Source: Georgenia wutianyii
GTDB taxonomy: Bacteria; Actinomycetota; Actinomycetes; Actinomycetales; Actinomycetaceae
Direction of reading: 5' to 3'
NCBI RefSeq assembly: GCF_006349365.1
Contig: NZ_CP040899.1
Span: 1,116,001-1,180,000 of the forward strand
DNA: 64,000 bases
Shown: positions 13,046-17,205 of the stretch, piece after piece
How positions within the stretch are numbered: the stretch's first letter is position 1
Layout of the letters: every line of letters begins with the position of its first letter
Program-made: the position numbers and the translations under genes
The notes under the pieces: generated by a model
Seen by the model: only the letters and a program-made list of their open reading frames with translations
Databases searched by the model: none
What the model was told of the DNA's origin: nothing

Positions 13046-13501
13046 ATGGCCGACACCCCGCGGATGCGCCGCGTGAGCGACCGCATCCAGCAGATCGTCG
13101 CCTCGATGCTCGAGTCCCGGATCAAGGACCCGCGCCTCGGCTTCGTCACCGTGACGGAGGTCCGGGTGACCGGTGACCTCCAGAACGCCACCGTCTACTA
13201 CACCGTCCTCGGGGACGAGCAGGCGCGGCAGGACACCGCCGCCGCCCTCGCCTCGGCCAAGGGCCTCATCCGCTCCGAGGTGGGCAAGCAGCTCGGTCTG
13301 CGGCTCACCCCGACCCTCGCCTTCACGGCGGACGTCATCCCGGAGACCGCGGCCGACCTCGACCGCGTCCTGCGCGAGGCGGCCGAGCGGGACGCCGAGC
13401 TGGCCCGCCTCGCGGCCGGCGCCACCCCGGCCGGGGAGGCCGACCCGTACCGCCGCGAGCGGGACGAGGAGCTCACGGCCGACGACCCGGCCGACCGCTG
13501 A
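13046..13501 (+). CDS. rbfA: Ribosome-binding factor A
   Basis: 151 aa. It is a KH-fold protein that binds 30S precursors and helps mature the 5' end of 16S rRNA, with cold-shock importance. The family start [19 protein letters not shown] and the segment [21 protein letters not shown] are clear. The C-terminus is acidic and variable. AGGAGGG precedes the ATG. It lies behind the infB terminator, so part of its expression may depend on read-through. The TauE gene starts 11 nt after the stop and is probably co-transcribed. Confidence 0.95.
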
Positions 13502-13512
13502 GCACCCAGCCC

Positions 13513-14277
13513 GTGAGCATCCCCCGACTGGGCGCCGCCGGCCTCGCCGTCGGCGTCCTGTCGGGGCTGCTCGGCATCGGCGGGGGCGTCGTCCTCGTCC
13601 CGGTCCTCGTCTCGCTGTTCGCGATGGCGCAGAAGCGGGCGCAGGCGACCTCACTCGCCGCGATCACCCTCACCGCCCTCGCCGGGGCCCTCAGCTACGG
13701 CATCGCCGGGGACGTCGTCATCGTGCCCGCGCTCCTCGTCGTCGCCGGCGGGCTCGTCGGCACGTTCCTCGGCGCCGAGCTGCTCCACCGCTTGTCCGAC
13801 CGGGCGCTGAAGATCGCCTTCGCCGCCGTCATGGTGGCGGTCGCCGTGCGCATGGCGCTGGCCCCGCCGGTCGAGGGCGCCGGCGAGATCGCCCACCTCG
13901 AGCCGGTCGTGCTGCTCGGCTACGTCGGCGCCGGCCTCCTCATGGGCCTGCTGTCCGCCCTCATCGGCATCGGCGGCGGGATCGTCATGGTGCCGCTGCT
14001 CGTCCTCGGCTTCGGGTTCACCCCTCAGGAGGCGCAGGGGACCTCGCTCGCCGCCATGGTGCCGATCTCGCTCCTCGGCGCGTGGCGTCACGCCCGCCGC
14101 GGGTACACCGACTGGCGATCCGGAGCGGTGCTCGGCCTGGGCGGCGTCGTCGGCGCTCCGCTCGGAACCCTCGTCGCCCAGGCGGCCCCGGGGGAGTGGC
14201 TCCAGCGACTCTTCGCCGTCCTCCTCCTCGTCACCGCCGTCCAGCTCGTCCTCAAGGCCCGCCGCACCCCCTCCTGA
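13513..14277 (+). CDS. TauE/SafE-family sulfite exporter-like permease
   Basis: 254 aa with about eight hydrophobic segments. It has two copies of the family signature G-L-[LI]-G-I-G-G-G-x-V (near residues 15-30 and 150-165), as expected for the internally duplicated TauE/SafE fold. The family includes exporters of sulfite, sulfoacetate and other organosulfonates, but the substrate cannot be read from the sequence. No sulfur gene is nearby. The GTG start is 11 nt after rbfA. The 3' side is CCCCGG repeats and then an 18-bp tandem array. Confidence 0.85.
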   Translation: MSIPRLGAAGLAVGVLSGLLGIGGGVVLVPVLVSLFAMAQKRAQATSLAAITLTALAGALSYGIAGDVVIVPALLVVAGGLVGTFLGAELLHRLSDRALKIAFAAVMVAVAVRMALAPPVEGAGEIAHLEPVVLLGYVGAGLLMGLLSALIGIGGGIVMVPLLVLGFGFTPQEAQGTSLAAMVPISLLGAWRHARRGYTDWRSGAVLGLGGVVGAPLGTLVAQAAPGEWLQRLFAVLLLVTAVQLVLKARRTPS

Positions 14278-14280
14278 CCG

Positions 14281-14304
14281 CCCCGGCCCCGGCCCCGGCC
14301 CCGG
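14281..14304 (+). repeat. CCCCGG hexanucleotide tract
   Basis: Four consecutive CCCCGG units lie directly after the tauE stop, with a degenerate fifth. The tract is a simple repeat next to the larger 18-bp array. Confidence 0.8.
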
Positions 14305-14322
14305 CCCTGCCTCCCTCCCTTA

Positions 14323-14466
14323 CGCGCGAGAGCCGACTTCCGCGCGAGAGCCGACTTCCGCGCGAGAGCCGACTTCCGCGCGAGAGCCGACTTCCGCGCG
14401 AGAGCCGACTTCCGCGCGAGAGCCGACTTCCGCGCGAGAGCCGACTTCCGCGCGACAGCGGAGTTC
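14323..14466 (+). repeat. Tandem 18-bp repeat array A (upstream of truB)
   Basis: Seven identical consecutive copies of CGCGCGAGAGCCGACTTC occupy 14323-14448, followed by one diverged copy at 14449-14466. No spacers separate the units, so this is not a CRISPR array. It lies between the tauE stop and the truB promoter. Its reverse complement is nearly the same as the unit of array B on the other side of truB (16 of 18 positions). The unit is a multiple of three and lacks stops in several frames, so it produces spurious RESRLP-type open frames. Confidence 0.95.
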
Positions 14467-14540
14467 TGGTCGGCAGTGGCGTTCCTCTCCGCCGGCCGCT
14501 CGACATGTCCTGGTGCCACGGCCCGTCCGTCGGGCGCTGC

Positions 14541-14546
14541 TAGCGT
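14541..14546 (+). promoter_or_regulatory. -10 box for leaderless truB
   Basis: TAGCGT ends 6 nt before GTG 14553. An in-frame GTG at 14550 would lie only 3 nt after the hexamer and is less likely as the start. Confidence 0.5.
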
Positions 14547-14552
14547 CGCGTG

Positions 14553-15491
14553 GTGACCGAACGCCGCGCACCTTCCGGATCCGCCGACCCCGCCGACGGG
14601 ATCCTCGTCGTCGACAAGCCCTCGGGCTGGACGAGCCACGACGTCGTCGGACGCGTCCGCCGCCTCGCCGGGACCCGCAAGGTCGGCCACGCCGGCACCC
14701 TCGACCCTATGGCCACCGGCGTGCTGGTCCTCGGCGTCGGCCGCGCGACGCGGCTGCTCACCTACCTCGTGGGCGCGGACAAGGAGTACACGGCGACGAT
14801 CCGGCTCGGGCAGGCGACGATCACCGACGACGCCGAGGGCGACGTCACCACCGCCGTGGGCGCCCCCGACGTCTCCCGGGAGGCCGTCGAGGCCGCTCTC
14901 ACGGACCTTCGGGGTCCGATCGAGCAGGTGCCGAGCTCGGTGAGCGCGATCAAGGTCGACGGCAAGCGGTCCTACGCGCGGGTGCGTGGCGGGGAGGAGG
15001 TCGAGCTCGCCGCCCGGCCGGTCGTCATCCACCGTTTCGACGTCCTCGACAGGCGCACGACGACGGCGCAGGACGGGACGCCCGTCACCGACCTCGACGT
15101 CGTCGTCGGCTGCTCGTCCGGAACCTACGTGCGCGCGCTCGCCCGTGACCTCGGCGCCGCGCTCGGCACCGGCGGCCACCTCACCGCGCTGCGCCGCACG
15201 CAGGTCGGGCCGTTCGGGCTCGACGGCGCGGCCGACCTGGCCGCGCTCGGCGTCGCGCACGAGGAGGGTGCGCCGGTGCGGCTGCTCTCGCTCACCGAGG
15301 CGTGCCGGCTCGCGTTCCCGGTGCGTGACCTCACCGCGGAGGAGACGACGGCGGTCCGGTACGGCAAGCGGCTCGCGCCGAGCGGGTGTCCCGGGACGGT
15401 CGCCGTCGCGGCACCGGACGGACACGTCGTCGCGCTCGTCGAGGACCGCGGGGAGCAGGCCCGGCCGGTGCTCGTGCTCGACCCAGCCTGA
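14553..15491 (+). CDS. truB: tRNA pseudouridine-55 synthase TruB
   Basis: 312 aa. It isomerises U55 in the T loop of elongator tRNAs. The catalytic aspartate sits in GHAGTLDPMATGVL. The family segments GADKEYTATIRLG, VPSSVSAIKVDGKRSYARVRGG and CSSGTYVRALARDLG are all present, with a PUA-like C-terminal part. GTG 14553 is favoured by the upstream -10 spacing. The gene is framed by two oppositely oriented 18-bp repeat arrays. ribF and rpsO, common truB neighbours, follow after a nucleoside transporter. Confidence 0.96.
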   Translation: MTERRAPSGSADPADGILVVDKPSGWTSHDVVGRVRRLAGTRKVGHAGTLDPMATGVLVLGVGRATRLLTYLVGADKEYTATIRLGQATITDDAEGDVTTAVGAPDVSREAVEAALTDLRGPIEQVPSSVSAIKVDGKRSYARVRGGEEVELAARPVVIHRFDVLDRRTTTAQDGTPVTDLDVVVGCSSGTYVRALARDLGAALGTGGHLTALRRTQVGPFGLDGAADLAALGVAHEEGAPVRLLSLTEACRLAFPVRDLTAEETTAVRYGKRLAPSGCPGTVAVAAPDGHVVALVEDRGEQARPVLVLDPA

Positions 15492-15518
15492 CGCGTCGCC
15501 CTCCAGGACTCCCAGGGC

Positions 15519-15644
15519 GGAGTCTGCCGCCGCGCGGAACTCGGCTGTCGCGACGAACTCCGCCGCCGCGCGGAACTCGGCTGTCGCGCGGAACTCGGCT
15601 GTCGCGCACAAGTCGGCTGTCGTGCGGAACTCGGCTGTCGCGGG
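15519..15644 (-). repeat. Tandem 18-bp repeat array B (downstream of truB), inverted relative to array A
   Basis: Seven contiguous 18-bp units related to GAACTCGGCTGTCGCGCG (plus strand) start at 15519, 15537, 15555, 15573, 15591, 15609 and 15627. Unlike array A the copies have diverged, at 1-6 positions each. The reverse complement of array A's unit is GAAGTCGGCTCTCGCGCG, which differs only at positions 4 and 11. The array begins 28 nt after the truB stop and ends about 100 nt before the transporter start. No gene is recognisable in the rest of 15492-15741. Confidence 0.93.
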
Positions 15645-15741
15645 GGAGGGGGCGAGGAGGGCGGGTGACGCTCTCTCACGGGCGGAGCGGCGGGGTGTGT
15701 GCGAGGGTGAGTGCGCTCGTGCACGAGAGAGGGGGGAAGCC

Positions 15742-17205
15742 GTGCTCCAGGTGCTGTGGGGACTCGGTGGAATGGTGCTCGTCCTGGCGATCGCCTGGCT
15801 GCTGTCGGTCGACCGACGCCGGATCAACTACCGGACGATCACGCTCGCGCTGCTCATCCAGATCACCTTCGGCTTCCTCGTGCTCTACGTGCCCGCCGGC
15901 AGGTGGGTGCTGGAGGAGTTCACCACCGCGGTCCAGGCCGTCATCAACTCCTCCTCGTCCGGCATCGACTTCCTCTTCGGGCCGATCCTGCCCGACGAAG
16001 GCTCGGTCTTCGCCTTCCAGGTGCTTCCGGTCATCGTCTTCTTCGCCTCGCTCACCGCCGTCCTCTACTACATCGGTGCGCTGCAGCTCGTCACGCGGTG
16101 GATCGGGGGCGGCCTGGCGAAGGTCCTCGGCACCACCGGCCCGGAGTCGATGAATGCCGCGGCGAACATCTTCGTCGGTCAGACCGAGGCGCCCCTCGTC
16201 ATCCGTCCCTACATCAAGCACATGACGCCGTCGGAGGTCTTCGCCGTCATGGCCGGCGGGCTGACGACGGTCGCCGGCTCGGTGCTCGTCGGCTACTCGC
16301 TGCTCGGGGCGAACCTCGAGTACCTCATCGCGGCGAGCTTCATGGCAGCCCCCGCCGGGCTGCTCATGGCGAAGATGCTCGTGCCCGCGGGCGCGCTGTC
16401 CGACATCGGGCCCAACGCGGTGCCCACGGACGGGGCGACGACGACGGCGCGAACGCCCGTCGTGCAGGCGCCCGACACGGTGAGCGGCGCCGACACCCCG
16501 GAGGTCCCCCGCAAGGCGGGCGGCCGGAAGGAGGACCGCAGCTTCGCCGACCGGGCGAGGGCCGCCTTCCAGCGCGGCGCGCGGCGCGGGGCCACGGTGG
16601 AGGGTCGCGACGAGCTCGTGCGCCGGGTCCGCGCGGCCGACGAGCCGGCCGACGCCGACACCGACGACGACACCGCCGACGACGACGAGCCCGTCAACGT
16701 CATCGACGCCGCCTCCCGTGGCGCGTCCGACGGCCTCGGGCTGGCGCTCAACGTCGGCGCCATGCTCCTCGCGTTCATCTCCCTCGTCGCGCTGCTCAAC
16801 ATCATCTTCGGCGCCATCGGCTCGCTCTTCGGGGTCGACGACCTCTCCGTCCAGCAGATCCTCGGCTACGTGTTCGCCCCGGTGATGACGGCGGTCGGCG
16901 TGCCGATCAACGAGGCCGTCGACGCCGGCAGCTTCCTCGGCCAGAAGGTCGTCCTCAACGAGTTCGTCGCCTTCTCCGACTTCGCGCCCCGCGCGGAGGA
17001 GTTCAGCGCGAAGTCCCAGGCGATCATCACCTTCGCGCTCACCGGCTTCGCCAACCTCGGCTCCCTCGCGATCCTCCTCGGCGGCCTCGGCGGCATCGCC
17101 CCGACCCAGCGGGGCGTCATCGCCACCCTCGGTCTGCGGGCCGTGCTGGCCGGCACCCTGGGCAACCTCATGTCGGCCGCGATCGCCGGAATTCTCATCG
17201 GCTGA
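15742..17205 (+). CDS. nupC: NupC-type concentrative nucleoside transporter (CNT family)
   Basis: 487 aa. It imports nucleosides by cation symport across the cytoplasmic membrane. The CNT signature region [20 protein letters not shown] (residues 147-166) and the second half [23 protein letters not shown] are clear, with NEFVAFSDF near the C-terminal core. GTG 15742 is preceded by a strong GAGAGGGGGGAAG site. Between the two transport halves, about residues 217-318 are a hydrophilic insert with basic then acidic runs ([13 protein letters not shown]). Family members usually have a much shorter linker there. The membrane topology otherwise looks intact. Confidence 0.92.

Follow-up and report, generated by a model that had tools for sequence, protein, structure and literature searches.

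Dispersed 18-bp Tandem Arrays in Georgenia: A Candidate Gene 3'-End Repeat with Hairpin Relatives

Introduction

Placement at gene 3' ends is a familiar property of REP repeats, and the TRIT terminators of mycobacteria are sequence-conserved hairpin terminators repeated across an actinobacterial genome, though we know of no tandem form of them. The BOX elements of Streptococcus pneumoniae contain an internal repeat in variable number. REP, BIME and REPIN sequences are described as high-copy, extragenic, hairpin-forming repeats, some of which lie in genes, with several families per group (PMC3733652, PMC3116915, PMC2817692), and a GTAG or CGTC tag is given for one end of REP/REPIN sequences (PMC3733652). 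The DNA uptake sequences of Neisseria are portrayed as a short genome-wide motif whose core is conserved and whose dialects differ by species, and inverted pairs of which act as terminators (PMC3630211, PMC2397512). Dispersed elements with terminator-like sequences are described in S. pneumoniae under the name SPRITE, and palindromic elements of Rickettsia as in-frame insertions across many unrelated genes (both PMC10969869). Among the Beggiatoaceae, 169 short intergenic sets of TAACTGA direct repeats are reported from one genome, with a mechanism of spread given as unknown (PMC4679880), and the TRIT model is mentioned in PMC3526491.

The arrays described here, from the genus Georgenia, behave most like REP/BIME repeats and neisserial uptake-sequence pairs, yet they depart from the defining features of both. 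Like REP/REPIN sequences they are dispersed, high in copy number and mainly extragenic; unlike them, they consist of 18-bp units set head to tail, and the IS200-like transposase family is without a match in the genus. A single unit is not palindromic, a palindrome arising where two opposed units meet. Neisserial uptake sequences differ in being scattered single copies, and the spacing of the Georgenia arrays is wider than 1-1.5 kb. Compared by description rather than by sequence, SPRITE and BOX differ in that the hairpin arms themselves are multiplied in Georgenia; the TRIT comparison is likewise one of description. In contrast to the Rickettsia elements, the arrays are mainly intergenic and tandem, with three in-frame cases, and whereas TAACTGA repeats lie just upstream of start codons, the Georgenia arrays lie mainly at gene 3' ends. 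A literature search, whose coverage was thin for subscription journals, found no account of this array family among the entries listed.

The truB Locus

The window, a stretch of 64,000 nucleotides from a source genome of 3,454,625 bp in one contig, contains two 18-bp arrays, A and B, on either side of truB (Table 1). Array A comprises, as the original prediction described, seven identical copies of CGCGCGAGAGCCGACTTC (14323-14448) and one diverged copy (14449-14466); the latter has three differences. Of the seven diverged copies claimed for array B, six are within three mismatches of the unit (15537-15644) and the seventh (15519-15536) is weak, differing at 5 of 18 positions; in both arrays the unit differences are counts made by eye. 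When unit A is reverse-complemented, positions 4 and 11 are its sole mismatches to unit B, and the two arrays are one 18-bp family in inverted orientation. Both follow gene stops, A by 45 nt (TauE/SafE stop at 14277) and B by 27 nt (truB stop at 15491), and a transposase gene is absent from their vicinity; in each of these respects the earlier description was borne out. The lack of coding sense also ascribed to the arrays is true of A and B themselves, but other arrays of the family sit in frame within predicted genes. The further suggestion that array A is the younger gains no support from the arrays elsewhere in the genome, which are uniform in some cases and mixed in others.

Table 1. Arrays, flanks and genes at the truB locus (window positions)
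Feature	Position	Strand	Basis
TauE/SafE-family gene, upstream of array A	13513..14277	+	ORF; Pfam TauE, E 7.9e-55
C-rich tract after TauE/SafE stop (G-rich 3' flank of array A in unit orientation)	14278..14322	+	Sequence
Array A: 8 units, GAAGTCGGCTCTCGCGCG on minus strand, 7 identical	14323..14466	-	Sequence, unit matches
truB, enclosed by the outward-facing pair A and B	14550..15491	+	Pfam TruB_N, E 3.3e-48
Array B: 6 units with up to 3 mismatches and weak unit 15519-15536; consensus GAACTCGGCTGTCGCGCG	15519..15644	+	Sequence, unit matches
G-rich 3' flank of array B	15645..15665	+	Sequence; general to the array family
Nucleoside-transporter-family gene, 3' of array B	15742..17205	+	Pfam Nucleos_tra2_C, E 3.7e-70

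The terminal unit of array B ends TCGCGGG, and the array faces the start of the next gene rather than a stop. With up to three mismatches allowed, the unit matches the window 15 times, 14 of these matches belonging to the two arrays; 2.4 were expected, and no more than 7 appeared in any of 100 shuffles. A search of Rfam with positions 13500-16500 of the window gave three matches at E up to 5, the best of them at 25.4 bits where the gathering cut-off is 80. A GCCCCG hexamer repeat of 4.7 copies (14280-14307) lies in the C-rich tract that follows the TauE stop and precedes array A.

truB was matched in all six genus genomes. A gene cassette or composite transposon around truB was considered and set aside, since the next gene is kept in five of five congeners and the preceding gene in four of five, as judged by gene size and order and with the contig of one congener (G356) ending before the preceding gene.

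A Dispersed Family with Species Dialects

At up to three mismatches the unit is found 744 times (361 + 383) in the source genome, as against 26 (11 + 15) for a reversed control pattern, and it recurs in the genus; the family is therefore repeated well beyond this locus. These matches, together with the related repeats that precede truB in three congeners, practically dispose of local slippage beside truB as an explanation, even though the seven identical copies in array A would suit it. Stretches totalling 1.4 Mb of the source genome were examined closely, with genes taken from a simple codon-usage caller, and contain 48 arrays (35 and 13 from two sets of stretches); the genome as a whole holds roughly a hundred similar arrays.

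Outside the source genome the distribution is narrow. A strict tandem pattern at up to three mismatches matched the source genome alone among 296 of the class, with nothing in the 295 others; among 61 family genomes, a tandem pattern (again at up to three mismatches) matched only the source genome and a congener, Georgenia satyanarayanai NBRC 107612 (G336). A relaxed search for the skeleton AASTnnGCTSTCG at an 18-bp period, with up to two mismatches, returned 673, 334, 125, 121 (from a 57% complete genome), 4 and 1 tandem pairs in the six genus genomes, against 23, 0, 3, 4, 0 and 0 reversed-control pairs in the same order. Many tandem copies are present in four of the six, and the two genomes with low counts, G358 and G356, bear related units whose period is longer than 18 bp. 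Among 145 other family genomes the relaxed skeleton gave one pair in each of two, and a third had one control hit. TRF, run on 80 kb apiece of four other family genomes and on 21.7 kb of a fifth, yielded assorted intergenic tandem repeats, none matching the skeleton. Within the samples searched, the array family has been seen so far only in the genus of G. satyanarayanai. A separate observation comes from Nocardia albiluteola (L144), where three core-pattern matches of 18-bp period lie at one place, multiples of 18 apart, and where the array finder reported none.

Each of the four array-rich genomes has its own unit dialect on the common skeleton AASTnnGCTSTCG. Units of the source genome mostly end in CGCG after the core and those of G. 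satyanarayanai with GCGG or GCGA, and in G357 and G303 the two bases following AAST are altered. Position statistics were drawn, in two genomes, from inner units cut in phase regardless of mismatches. Core positions 2, 3, 5, 6, 8-10 and 12-14 are 95-100% uniform in the source genome and 90-100% in G. satyanarayanai, figures that retain some bias since the arrays were located via the core. Positions 4 and 11 are variable, yet G or C in 99-100%. Variation is also seen at position 7 in the source genome, and the linker is more variable than the core, except for position 17 in G. satyanarayanai (98%).

Placement and Polarity

The position of arrays relative to genes is uneven. Among gaps of 30-1500 bp in the 1.4 Mb, convergent gaps hold an array most often (11/89), tandem gaps less often (22/437) and divergent gaps rarely (2/159), and the same order is seen in 1.1 Mb (8/51, 15/288 and 2/116, respectively). 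The arrays are thus placed mainly at gene 3' ends and rarely in divergent gaps. They are also polar. In the 48 arrays of the source genome, G makes up 63% of the 25 bases on the 3' side and 37% of those on the 5' side, the corresponding values in G. satyanarayanai being 57% and 41%. Where a gene lies within 150 bp of the 3' side, its stop faces the array in 26 of 32 cases in the source genome and 34 of 47 in G. satyanarayanai; on the 5' side the counts are 17 of 28 and 23 of 38.

Where two arrays are neighbours within 2 kb, they mostly point outward. Their orientations in the source genome (n=17) are -+ 14, +- 2 and ++ 1, and those in G. satyanarayanai (n=23), whose loci were chosen by pattern match after removal of two chance arrays from other organisms and include one pair counted twice (on two near-identical contig ends), are -+ 19, +- 0, ++ 2 and -- 2. 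Over both species, 33 of 35 opposite-facing pairs are outward. In half of the outward pairs of the source genome (7/14), as with truB between A and B, exactly one predicted gene lies between the arrays, and seven other proteins enclosed by array pairs are, by eye, ordinary-looking. No outward partner lies within 2 kb of 20 of the 48 arrays. A link of orientation to replichore was rejected, both orientations being present at 0.15-0.45 Mb.

Inverted pairs at gene ends and dialects on a shared skeleton recall Neisseria (PMC3630211, PMC2397512), and by that analogy the arrays might be a tag resembling a DNA uptake sequence, with its inverted pairs serving as terminators. We regard this as very improbable, given that the arrays lie on average about 29 kb apart (48 in 1.4 Mb) and single matches occur once per 4.6 kb, compared with about 1.1-1.5 kb reported for meningococci (PMC2397512).

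At least three predicted genes of the source genome contain an array in frame (C1:2656334-2656405, 1239765-1239818 and 2652438-2652509). The in-frame copies use different frames and strands, and a role at the peptide level was rejected on that ground.

Hairpin Relatives

Two congeners, G303 and G358, carry the same core in single hairpins, which the source genome has as a second form; these lie in convergent or tandem gaps. Their layout is a C-rich tract, an arm with CGASAGC or CGAGCGC, a loop, the matching arm and a G-rich tract, and 14 such non-coding hairpins were counted by eye in 1.4 Mb of the source genome (7 in convergent and 7 in tandem gaps). In 12 distinct hairpins with a CGASAGC or CGAGCGC base, from a set that required a perfect 8-bp inner stem, the S position is G:C in eight, C:G in three and C-C in one, two of the 12 being mismatched at a neighbouring position. 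The G/C-only freedom at position 11 of the array unit is what swapped stem base pairs would leave. A pooled hairpin set was complementary at three positions in 25, 26 and 27 of 29 cases, with none of 5000 shuffles as high, but it includes other hairpin families and accordingly shows only that gene-end hairpins pair.

The region upstream of truB offers a view of these forms at one place. By eye, G358 and G356 have a related unit of 51-bp period in opposed arms, G357 has an 18-bp-like array, and G303 and G. satyanarayanai have short gaps without units. The repeats of G356, G357 and G358 share the minus orientation of array A, with plus units also present in G356 and G358. Since repeats stand at the same place in congeners, array A appears to be the local version of that element; array B has, by eye, its only occurrence in the source genome. 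The two arrays differ in folding as well: A folds better than shuffles (z -3.0 and -5.5) and B does not (z +0.3 and +0.5), for which reason self-folding was discarded as a conserved feature. A lone arm without its partner does not form a hairpin. Because the core also forms single gene-end hairpins, an array resembles one arm, multiplied, of a bidirectional 3'-end hairpin, and because the genus displays single hairpins, few units and long arrays, the route from gene-end hairpin to array may be traceable.

Hairpins of any kind, with the hairpin alone counted, are found in 11 of 14 convergent gaps in G303, 12 of 18 in G358 and 52 of 81 in the source genome, and belong mostly to other families. 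One such gene-end family, in 200 kb of G303, has CGAGTACGCAC...GTGCGTACTCG-like stems at four loci, and 200 kb of G358 contain a CATATGCGGGA...CCGCATATGCG gene-end hairpin at two loci (stretches L268-L287 in both cases).

A Possible Role at Transcript Ends

Arrays and other hairpins tend to avoid one another in convergent gaps, where another hairpin is present in 2 of 11 gaps with an array against 47 of 78 without (Fisher p 0.011, a post hoc comparison and one of three contexts). The difference is not significant in tandem gaps (3/22 against 100/415; p 0.31), and divergent gaps run in the opposite direction (1/2 against 6/157; p 0.09). Taken with position and polarity, the exclusion in convergent gaps suggests that arrays stand in for 3'-end hairpins, and on these sequence patterns the arrays could plausibly serve as 3'-end or termination elements. 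Arrays within genes, solitary arrays and the orientation of B toward a start codon argue against a strong, simple terminator.

On balance, we lean toward a reading in which the arrays are a genus-specific, dispersed gene-3'-end repeat of expanded hairpin arms that marks transcript ends and is homogenised genome-wide. The family, its polarity and placement, its shared sites, its dialects and its hairpin relatives are matters of observation; to these the reading would add a function, the marking of transcript 3' ends by termination or by insulation against read-through, and a process, homogenisation through copying or conversion between loci. The basic element would be a bidirectional hairpin (C-rich tract, CGnCGASAGC... 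arm, loop, ...GCTSTCGnCG arm, G-rich tract), the arms of which would have been multiplied, in the source species and G. satyanarayanai, to head-to-tail 18-bp arrays, often with one arm per site. Arrays differ between species at most compared sites and have a preferred polarity, the G-rich end outward and usually toward a gene's stop codon, and genome-wide homogenisation would leave each species with its own unit on a conserved skeleton. If arrays do end transcripts, they would represent a further, repeat-based type of gene border for bacteria of high GC content.

The unit might instead be a binding site, gathered by the arrays at gene borders, for a putative sequence-specific protein (nucleoid, insulator or terminator cofactor), a change in whose specificity would shift all arrays to a new dialect. 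Such a site would fit the 18-bp period, with a core that is conserved and a linker that varies more, in four of the six genus genomes (positions having been measured in two), the 99-100% G or C at positions 4 and 11, and the outward pairs that enclose exactly one predicted gene. We nonetheless think it unlikely: two genus members have longer periods, and in the light of the hairpin relatives a swapped base pair accounts for the restriction of position 11 to G or C.

Another role raised in the original prediction, long-range RNA pairing across truB, finds no support as a tuned interaction between A and B. A and B differ at both variable positions, and partner arrays are no more alike than re-dealt ones, with 1384 of 2000 shuffles in the source genome and 1683 of 2000 in G. 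satyanarayanai scoring at least as high. Moreover, of the 26 other arrays that are 100 bp or longer, 23 have a duplex energy with A equal to or better than that of B, in a comparison not normalised for length.

Site Turnover and Probable Concerted Evolution

Most array sites are not conserved between species. Of 72 arrays in G. satyanarayanai, 22 have both flanking genes syntenic in the stretches of the source genome, and the latter has an array in only 4 of these 22 gaps. A few sites are shared more widely: an FAD-like gene has the element at one and the same position in six of six genus genomes, with one to six units, and an SNF2-like gene has core-like units in all five copies whose site was read.

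Five shared sites, the four syntenic gaps and the FAD-gene array, were compared between the source genome and G. satyanarayanai. At each of the five, units were more similar to other loci of their own genome (0.75-0.86) than to the same site in the other species (0.59-0.78), although at one, 2,870,846, the two arrays are opposite in orientation and may not be one insertion; the other four agree. The FAD-site units of G357 likewise have a similarity of 0.84 to other G357 units, a set that includes units elsewhere in the locus, against 0.59 and 0.72 to the other two species; dialects at this site in G303, G356 and G358 were judged by eye. We read this pattern as probable concerted evolution of the array units. 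Arrays at 1.109 and 3.230 Mb share a 253-bp match of 88.5% that extends 13-15 bases beyond the array, and array A matches the array at 2,870,846 at 96% over 126 bp, both of which fit copying of whole arrays. Concerted evolution of about 100 dispersed, mostly non-coding arrays, visible at sites that species share, would be a clear natural case in which to study repeat homogenisation without a known REP transposase.

The main rival to a boundary role arises from this turnover. The arrays could be a neutral, selfish repeat of REP or MITE type that brings the cell no benefit, its 3'-end bias left by purging elsewhere and its likeness to hairpins a mark of how it is copied. Consistent with this are the 18 of 22 syntenic sites without an array in the source genome, where several gaps are only 3-19 bp, the in-frame copies in three predicted genes with their varied frames and strands, and partner arrays that are not co-adapted. 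An inert insert, however, would not be expected to have a preferred polarity or to exclude other hairpins, and ten core positions are 95-100% uniform (90-100% in G. satyanarayanai) when most other positions vary more. Nor is a suitable enzyme in evidence: the Y1 (IS200-like) transposase, PF01797, had no match in any of the six genus genomes, one of them 57% complete, in a search whose control was positive in 5 of 14 known genomes, and a REP-type (Y1/RAYT) transposase was rejected as the mover of the arrays. We hold the selfish reading possible, with distinctly limited confidence, and on the sequence patterns a 3'-end boundary role seems somewhat likelier than its absence.

A more speculative extension, which we doubt, is that one trans-acting machine, either a sequence-specific recognition protein or a templated copying enzyme extending or rewriting 18-bp units at G-rich gene ends, sets the dialect of the whole genome. 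A change in that machine or its template would alter all arrays in step, even at the site occupied in all six genomes. Were it so, bacteria would have in this machine an analogue of the uptake receptors that set dialects, or of templated repeats of the telomere type.

A shared loop or flank was considered as a mobile core and dropped, as flank matches seemed, by eye and unmasked, to lie mostly on adjacent opposite-strand units. Self-comparison of the 1.4 Mb returned 11 repeated segments; the presence of opposed arms is a separate observation. Other repeats in the source genome include a tandem duplication of about 176 bp with a two-unit array per copy (C1:3098393-3098604), a 5.4-kb duplicate of 99.8% identity that is perhaps an rRNA operon (C1:982450-987880 and 179248-184679), and a 1.7-kb run of tandem repeats whose period is near 285 bp (C1:2633128-2634843).
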